Assembly: GCA_001789805.1 (NCBI GenBank)
Contig: MGAR01000015.1
Span: 1 to 50,015 of the forward strand
From: Candidatus Roizmanbacteria bacterium RIFCSPLOWO2_01_FULL_41_22
GTDB lineage: Bacteria > Patescibacteriota > Microgenomatia > UBA1406 > GWC2-37-13
DNA length: 50,015 nucleotides
Reading direction: 5' to 3'
Part shown: in pieces, positions 5,634-35,124 of the stretch
Layout of the letters: each line of letters opens with the position of its first letter
Position numbering within the stretch: the first letter of the stretch is position 1
The notes under the pieces: generated by a model
Databases searched by the model: none
The model's input: only the letters and a program-made list of their open reading frames with translations
Told to the model about the DNA's origin: nothing
Made by a program: the position numbers and the translations under genes

Positions 5634-6689
5634 TTATTTAATAAATTTGCTTAACTCTGAAGATCTTTCAGCATAACGAATGGCCGTATCTCGGCTAATA
5701 AGGCCTTGCGAATAAAGTTTAAGTAAATATTTTTCAAATAAAATCATTTTGTTTTCTTCGTTAGTTTCAATCACATTATCCAGCATAAAAATTTTTCCTT
5801 CTCTAATTATTGAAGAAACGGCGGGCATATTAATAAGAATTTCAACAGCAGGGATGCGGGTTGAGTTATTGATATTGGGTAGAAGCCGCTGGGTTATTGC
5901 CGCTTTTAGCACCGATGCGAGCTGATAACGCACTTGGGTTTGCTGGTGGGGAGGAAAGACATCGATTATTCGGAAAATTGCTTCAGGCGTGGTGCTGGAA
6001 TGGAGAGTAGAAAAGACAAGGTGTCCGGTTTCGGCGATATTTAGCGCAGCCTGAATCGTGTCATAATCGCGCATTTCGCCAATTAAAACTACATCCGGAT
6101 CTTCTCTCAAAACTGAAGTCAACGCTTTTGTCCAGGAGTGGGTATCATAATGCAACTCTCTTTGGGAGACAATAGATTTGGCTTTAGGGAAAACATATTC
6201 GATCGGATCTTCTACGGTGACGATATGTTTTGTCTCCTCAAGATTGATTTCATTGACAATGGCAGCCAGTGAGGTAGTTTTACCTTCACCCGTTGGCCCG
6301 CAGATCAATACCAGGCCATCATGGAACTGGCTAAAAGTATGGAATTGAGATGGCAGATTTAGTTCATCAATCGATTTGATCACAGGTGGAATGATCCGAA
6401 AACAGGCAGCCAGAGTGCTTTTGGCATAGTAGCAGTTGACACGAAATCGGTAGCCTAAAAGCGCATAGCTAACATCAATTTCACGATTATTGATTAACAA
6501 AGTTTTTTGCTCAGTAGTAAGTAAAGAAAAAATTAACTCTTCGCTTGTTTCTTTGGTTAAAACATCATCAGTTTTTAGCTGATATAATTTTGTATTCACG
6601 CGGATAGTCGGATAGTACCCGACCAAAAGGTGGAGATCTGAACCTTCGCGCTTAATTGTGTCTTCCAATAACTGTTTAATAGAAACCAT
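5634..6689 (-). CDS. pilT: Type IV pilus retraction ATPase PilT
   Basis: 351 residues. N-terminal PAS-like domain, then a RecA-type ATPase: Walker A GPTGEGKTT (131-139; the usual GSGKST is GEGKTT here), Asp box VEDPIEYVFP, Walker B VVLIGEMRD and His box TGHLVFSTLHSS. The AIRNLIR-type C-terminal motif of classical PilT is not seen. PilT depolymerises the pilus and is needed for twitching and DNA uptake. The order pilB-pilT-pilC-pilin supports the call over a second PilB. The spacing to pilB is 32 bp with no clear ribosome binding site. Confidence 0.93.
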   Translation of the reverse strand: MVSIKQLLEDTIKREGSDLHLLVGYYPTIRVNTKLYQLKTDDVLTKETSEELIFSLLTTEQKTLLINNREIDVSYALLGYRFRVNCYYAKSTLAACFRIIPPVIKSIDELNLPSQFHTFSQFHDGLVLICGPTGEGKTTSLAAIVNEINLEETKHIVTVEDPIEYVFPKAKSIVSQRELHYDTHSWTKALTSVLREDPDVVLIGEMRDYDTIQAALNIAETGHLVFSTLHSSTTPEAIFRIIDVFPPHQQTQVRYQLASVLKAAITQRLLPNINNSTRIPAVEILINMPAVSSIIREGKIFMLDNVIETNEENKMILFEKYLLKLYSQGLISRDTAIRYAERSSELSKFIK

Positions 6690-29158: not shown

Positions 29159-29235
29159 TGGTGACTGCTGAGGGACTTGAACCCCCGACCTTCACAATGT
29201 CAATGTGACGCTCTAGCCAACTGAGCTAAGCAGTC
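29159..29235 (-). tRNA. tRNA-Val(GAC)
   Basis: Acceptor GACTGCT pairs with AGCAGTC, D-arm TTAGCTCAGTTGGCTAGAGC, anticodon loop TTGACAT with GAC, T-arm GGGGGTTCAAGTCCCTC. The 3' ACCA is encoded, unlike the other tRNAs in this window. Upstream of trpS on the same strand. Confidence 0.95.
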
Positions 29236-34699: not shown

Positions 34700-34813
34700 G
34701 ATAAAATAGTATATAACGTTCTAACTTAGCTTTGTTGTTGAGTTTATTAATTTTTAAGGTATTTTTCGCATATTTAGCTCCTGTAGCTTAACTGGATAGA
34801 GTACGTGGCTCCT

Positions 34814-34926
34814 GCCCGCTATGACTAAGCGTCCGTAGCTTAACTGGATAGAGCAGATGGCTTCGGACCATCAGGTTGCGGGTTCGAGTCCTGCCGGACG
34901 CACAGAAAGCGATGGCAGGCGGGTCT
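34814..34926 (+). other. 113-nt insert (intron-like) in tRNA-Arg(CCU) carrying a complete tRNA
   Basis: Left arm 34814-34828, inner tRNA 34829-34902, right arm 34903-34926. The arms can pair: GCCCGC (34814-34819) with GCGGGT (34919-34924), directly under the anticodon loop, or alternatively CCTGCC (34811-34816) with GGCAGG (34914-34919). It is much too short, and lacks the conserved core, for a group I intron, although from memory group I introns do occupy the same anticodon-loop position of tRNA-Arg(CCU) in some proteobacteria. Confidence 0.75.
34829..34902 (+). tRNA. Inner tRNA-Arg(TCG), nested within tRNA-Arg(CCU)
   Basis: Acceptor GCGTCCG / CGGACGC, D-arm GCTTAACTGGATAGAGC, anticodon stem GATGG / CCATC with loop CTTCGGA (anticodon TCG), T-arm GCGGGTTCGAGTCCTGC, discriminator A; no encoded CCA. 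Canonical in every arm. The D-arm is nearly identical to that of the outer tRNA, so the two are paralogues. Confidence 0.95.
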
Positions 34927-34982
34927 GACCATGTGGTGGGGGTTCGATTCCCTCCAGGAGCACAAAAAAAGAAGCGTAATAA

Positions 34983-35055
34983 GGGTCTGTAGCTCAACTG
35001 GCAGAGCAGTAGCCTCTTAAGCTATTGGTTGAGGGTTCGAGTCCCTCCAGACTCA
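34983..35055 (+). tRNA. tRNA-Lys(CTT)
   Basis: Acceptor GGGTCTG / CAGACTC (one G-U), D-arm GCTCAACTGGCAGAGC, anticodon loop CTCTTAA, T-arm GAGGGTTCGAGTCCCTC, discriminator A, CCA not encoded. It lies 20 nt downstream of the nested tRNA-Arg pair and is probably co-transcribed. Confidence 0.95.
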
Positions 35056-35124
35056 CTAAAACTCAAATTTAAGGCCAAAGATTGTTTCTCCTTCAAAATG
35101 AGGCTAAAATGGCTACTTTAGAGG

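Follow-up and report, generated by a model that had tools for sequence, protein, structure and literature searches.

Bacterial tRNA genes are portrayed as uniform in structure, with group I and group II introns as the exceptions (PMC4033280), and our search of the open-access literature brought up no report of one tRNA gene lying inside another. Group I introns in the anticodon loops of bacterial tRNA genes (PMC4033280) share their insertion point and their harmlessness to the host with the 113-nt cassette described here, but the cassette lacks a ribozyme core and would be harmless by substitution, not by splicing. Integrative elements with tRNA attachment sites also insert in tRNA genes and bring along tRNA sequence that preserves host viability; what they restore is confined to the 3' part of that gene, whereas the cassette would supply a complete second tRNA and its target would be abandoned, and the 113-nt insert has no integrase gene, which sets it apart from integrase-type elements. 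Dada DNA transposons resemble the cassette in inserting into tRNA genes close to the anticodon or the A box, but they are eukaryotic and rely on multicopy targets, and the available excerpt of their description does not mention a tRNA cargo (PMC8869645). By analogy the cassette is also akin to IStrons, which in the excerpted account (PMC4227781) are mobile elements carrying what renders their insertion harmless; IStrons self-splice out, whereas the cassette would substitute for the gene that it has broken.

In appearance the cassette resembles a REP-type mobile hairpin, though we do not class it as a REP. REP/RAYT palindromes (the GTAG and CGTC families and the RPE of Rickettsia; PMC3733652, PMC8266576) are, like it, short imperfect palindromes with many dispersed copies and no gene of their own, and they can lie inside genes, as the cassette hairpin sometimes does. 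One such copy, in G048 (L084), is a compact hairpin that adds 36 nt in frame to a pyrG-like gene, in the manner of RPE in Rickettsia. The feet of the cassette resemble the guide and the cleavage site that pair with each other at REP and IS200/IS605 ends (PMC8266576). The tag of the GTAG and CGTC REPs is absent from the cassette, whose left flanks vary and whose right end is CGGG. Unlike REP/RAYT systems, the cassette was found with no adjacent Y1 transposase and carries a whole tRNA gene matching its target; CGTC REPs also occur without a flanked RAYT gene (PMC3733652). IS200/IS605 elements, which move as single-stranded DNA by means of a Y1 transposase, likewise have hairpin ends, left/right end complementarity and no target duplication, but at 113 nt the cassette is too small for a transposase, and the likeness is one of sequence.

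In the window, the whole 50,015-nt stretch of Candidatus Roizmanbacteria DNA that was analysed, positions 34777-34962 on the forward strand read directly as a tRNA-Arg gene split around a 113-nt insert (34811-34923). The 5' half of this outer tRNA (34777-34810) comprises the acceptor strand, D arm, anticodon stem, C32 and U33, and the 3' half (34924-34962) the anticodon UCU, the remaining loop, the T arm, the acceptor strand and a discriminator A. When joined, the halves formed 21 of 21 stem pairs (7+4+5+5) and were called as tRNA-Arg(tct) by ARAGORN. The insert holds an intact tRNA-Arg(UCG) flanked by the hairpin feet CCTGCCCG and GCAGGCGGG; this tRNA was called by both ARAGORN and Rfam at 34829-34902/3, with 21/21 pairs and an Rfam cloverleaf score of 66 bits against a cut-off of 29. 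The left foot of the cassette, CCTGCCCGC, lies at 34811-34819 and the right foot, GCAGGCGGG, at 34915-34923. Also on the forward strand is the neighbouring tRNA-Lys(CUU) at 34983-35055 (Rfam, 70.6 bits), which is conserved in most relatives examined and adjoins the locus in L002-L007. The nesting of one tRNA gene inside another is thus confirmed, and the original prediction of a complete tRNA gene in an anticodon loop, with every stem of both tRNAs paired, holds. Among 135 tRNAs, true flanks gave a full 12/12 match of acceptor and anticodon stem in 12 cases, all of them hairpin-framed nested loci, against 2 of 655 for mismatched flanks as a chance control. Folding of the 186-nt locus gave unremarkable z-scores (-1.35 as RNA, -1.01 as DNA), its minimum free energy fold did not show both cloverleaves, and a promoter scan upstream returned one weak consensus match, no better than those in shuffled sequences.

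From the sequence of the window alone, cuts at CT^TCTGA and at CTCCT^GA both give a 7-nt loop. The locus is empty in the related genome G737, where the uninterrupted sequence is GGCTTCGAACC (L155). Because this empty site and the feet of other cassettes place the junction after U33, the outer anticodon is UCU. An outer tRNA-Arg(CCU), as first proposed, was rejected on this junction, since CCT belongs to the left foot of the insert; a check suggested alongside it found two intact tRNA-Arg(CCU) genes elsewhere in the genome of the window, G000 (L066, L074). In relatives the outer anticodon at this locus is UCG, as opposed to UCU in the window. We also considered whether G37 of the outer loop might signal decay and dropped the idea, as a tRNA-Arg(UCU) of G445 has an identical CTTCTGA loop. 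A strict N^TC target rule proved to be an artefact of the first search pattern; a relaxed search gave TT, GA, TA, GC and others after the junction.

The outer UCU tRNA may be an AGA reader that the cell needs. The G000 assembly, a draft of 37 contigs with 93% completeness, yielded no second UCU tRNA, and Leu(UAA), Thr(UGU) and Glu(UUC) are missing from it as well. All three adjoin tRNA-Arg(UCU) in G029 (L012), the first two also in L016; since these neighbours are missing from G000 too, its tRNA-Arg(UCU) cluster probably lies in an assembly gap. A search of G000 for a neighbour gene of the cluster gave no match, which does not decide the matter. Despite its completeness, the G000 tRNA list also lacks Asn, Trp, Ala(UGC), Gly(UCC), Ser(GCU) and others; some of the missing tRNAs may lie in gaps, and some may be split by inserts and so be invisible to tRNA scanners.

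The arrangement recurs well beyond the window. We compared 45 distinct cassettes from Microgenomates and other Patescibacteria, one of them in a single-contig genome. When the two feet were sought at a spacing of 80-110 nt, there were 20 matches in 18 of 373 genomes of the class and 1 match for the reversed pattern; relaxing the right end gave 24 matches in 15 of 83 genomes of the order and 0 for the reversed pattern. With a T-loop included in the pattern, a scan of ~85,000 species genomes found cassettes in Roizman-, Gottesman-, Woyke-, Chisholm-, Levy-, Shapiro-, Kerfeld-, Kuenen- and Kazanbacteria, together with chance matches in other, mostly GC-rich genomes. A second nested pair occurs in G000 itself, a tRNA-Ile(GAU) within a tRNA-Ile(GAU) on contig 10 at 6084-6198 (L044, L051), with the hairpin in the opposite orientation and both cloverleaves at 21/21 pairs. 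Triple nesting was seen in L085 and L103. The inner anticodons included Arg UCG; Ile GAU and UAU; Val CAC, GAC and UAC; Leu CAA, CAG and GAG; Glu UUC and CUC; Pro CGG and GGG; Thr CGU; Gly UCC; Trp CCA; Ala CGC; and Gln CUG. One hairpin type carries at least 17 anticodons; related genomes do not count as independent cases, but so many anticodons, together with both hairpin orientations, imply many separate events.

An error of assembly or binning at a pair of similar tRNA genes could be entertained for the window, where the assembly is a draft in 37 contigs and the inner and outer tRNA-Arg have a 19-nt stretch in common. We regard it as extremely improbable: the same architecture appears in dozens of independent assemblies, including the single-contig G445, which matches the Kazan record CP011216, titled as a complete genome, and relatives carry decay intermediates at the same locus. 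The possibility of an assembly error raised with the original prediction is contradicted by this recurrence.

The cassettes follow a small set of regularities. The feet covary over the 45 cassettes (CT-AG in 39, TC-GA in 4, TT-AG as a wobble in 1, and one mismatch), and CCCGC of the left foot is able to pair with GCGGG of the right foot, which by the search pattern is the same in all cassettes. Insertion leaves no target duplication. All tRNA-bearing cassettes lie within tRNA genes or what remains of them, the anticodon loop being the usual site and the D arm an occasional one, and none was seen elsewhere among the cassettes compared. Wherever the outer tRNA can be read, the inner tRNA is on its strand, whereas the hairpin itself occurs in both orientations. 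The inner and outer anticodons are the same, a few decayed outers not being readable with certainty, except in the window (UCG in UCU), L038 (CAC in CGU) and L243 (GAU in AAU). Compact hairpins without a tRNA were found in 40 of 373 genomes, with as many as 7 in one genome (reversed control, 0), inserted in unrelated places and in several cases within tRNA remnants.

We consider it probable that the insert is a mobile, REP-like palindromic hairpin carrying a substitute tRNA, and that the inner tRNA takes over while the outer shell decays. The cassette would then be a mobile non-coding palindrome with REP-like feet and a whole tRNA gene in its loop, entering the hairpin loops of tRNA genes without target duplication, mostly at the anticodon and sometimes at the D arm. 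Once interrupted, the outer tRNA would no longer be made; the inner tRNA would be transcribed on the same strand from the promoter of the outer gene, released by the usual RNase P cleavage and 3'-end processing, and would replace the outer tRNA, whose shell would decay until the inner tRNA alone remained at the locus. Mobility may depend on a single-stranded hairpin recombinase of a Y1/HUH-like kind. Y1_Tnp had no match in G000, none of 30 fetched Y1 loci had a Y1 gene flanked by cassette hairpins, and no transposase was found beside the hairpins in the loci examined.

Evidence of movement comes from cassettes that are more alike than the tRNAs around them. The cassettes of L038 and L040 are 98% identical and their outers 63%, differing close to the junction; the two loci have a downstream neighbour gene in common at ~74%, so a single locus may have been converted or have received two insertions, a possibility that does not touch the other pairs. 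Cassettes in Val(GAC) of G739 and G754, from different genera, are 96% identical (outers 65%), and those of L042 and L045, from different families, 94% identical (outers 79%). The window itself has an uninterrupted tRNA-Val(GAC) (29159-29235) nearly identical to the outer Val(GAC) split in G005. Between G005 and G739 the nested unit is 98% conserved, while the adjacent gene is close to saturation at its 4-fold sites (17/49 identical). Since even the hairpin linkers are identical, we read this as recent lateral transfer; constraint is a possible alternative cause.

These comparisons also bear on a reading without transposition, in which, for any given tRNA type, a nested locus seldom originated and was then carried from species to species solely by homologous recombination in the conserved arms of the outer tRNA. 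It would account for the shared anticodon and strand and for the lack of tRNA-bearing cassettes outside tRNA genes, and the outers of L042 and L045 do agree beside the junction. Those of L038 and L040 differ close to it, however, the range of anticodons on one hairpin type would require many separate origins, and compact hairpins clearly insert in unrelated places; we therefore judge recombination alone to be unlikely. For the mobile cassette, the match of cargo to target is not fully explained by random transposition, because no tRNA-bearing cassette was seen outside tRNA genes. It may arise because the host is rescued, and the insertion survives, only where the cargo is transcribed and of the same specificity, because ready-made nested loci recombine through the outer arms, or both; neither selection nor outer-arm spread alone explains everything, for example the first origin for each tRNA type.

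The states of the two tRNAs suggest which of them works. Inner cloverleaves had 20-21 of 21 pairs without exception; outers had 20-21 in about half of cases, a share possibly inflated by exact-match patterns that favour young cassettes, and 14-19 in the rest. Among relatives, the window's locus is empty in G737, nested in G000, G005 and G739, nested with a decayed outer in G023, G035 and G754, and occupied by a single inner-type tRNA in G017, G020, G021 and G022. We infer an order from empty through nested and decayed outer to inner-type alone, a series of sequence states and not a dated tree. The scan of relatives suggested with the original prediction did find the arrangement again, with about half of the outers decayed. 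The single-contig G445 has 43 anticodon species, and there Val(CAC) occurs uninterrupted only as the inner tRNA; in G000 no copies of Arg(UCG) and Ile(GAU) were found besides the inner ones, a weaker statement, as in most genomes here, in a draft lacking more than 10 expected tRNA species. The sole-copy pattern and the integrity of the inner tRNAs against decay of the outers support replacement, with the inner tRNA as the putative working copy and the outer presumably left unspliced; the half of outers that keep perfect stems counts against it.

That half speaks for a reading in which the cassette is an intron, excised with ligation of the outer halves, while the inner tRNA derives from the excised piece, so that one transcript yields two tRNAs. 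The feet could pair under the anticodon stem, and the strongest reason to keep this reading is the conservation of outer and hairpin between G005 and G739, both of which have RtcB. No group I intron matched in Rfam at E<=1 over 34740-35070 and there is no ribozyme core (P3-P8), in line with the earlier remark that the insert leaves no room for one. RtcB was found in 3 of 24 genomes searched (G005, G739 and G035, all of one genus) and in none of the other 21, which include G000 and the single-contig G445. Many outers are decayed, whereas no inner is, and the outer of G027 (L020) is nested yet has lost its anticodon. No canonical bulge-helix-bulge was seen by eye at the locus. The archaeal/eukaryal splicing endonuclease is not known from bacteria. 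The splicing or RtcB religation first suggested is thus not supported. We hold the intron reading to be quite improbable, and it is still a shade less probable that one transcript gives two working tRNAs, the outer religated by an unfamiliar bacterial mechanism and the inner an intron-encoded gene of the outer. The other option offered with the original prediction, a fresh insertion that killed a tRNA, came close as to the insertion, but missed that the cassette is recurrent and mobile and brings a same-anticodon replacement.

If a recurrent, laterally moving cassette breaks into tRNA genes of many specificities and supplies a same-anticodon substitute, selfish elements would have a novel means of occupying single-copy essential genes, and minimal genomes a route for tRNA gene replacement. 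The cassettes pose a testable question in the matching of cargo to target, and for annotation, the split outer tRNAs were missed by the standard scans used.

Other loci show variants of the theme. Vehicles other than the compared hairpin exist: in G027 (L020) a nested tRNA-Arg(UCG) lies in a different hairpin (TCCCGCAT/ATGCGGGA), with the outer stems intact. Some 30 nt past the intact tRNA-Arg of G737 (L155), a related hairpin (CCCGCCTGC...GCGGGC) interrupts the D arm of the neighbouring tRNA-Lys, whose 3' half is missing. In G145 (L185), two dead tRNA-Arg-like copies with a compact hairpin, at 1457 and 2514, lie beside an intact tRNA-Arg(CCU).
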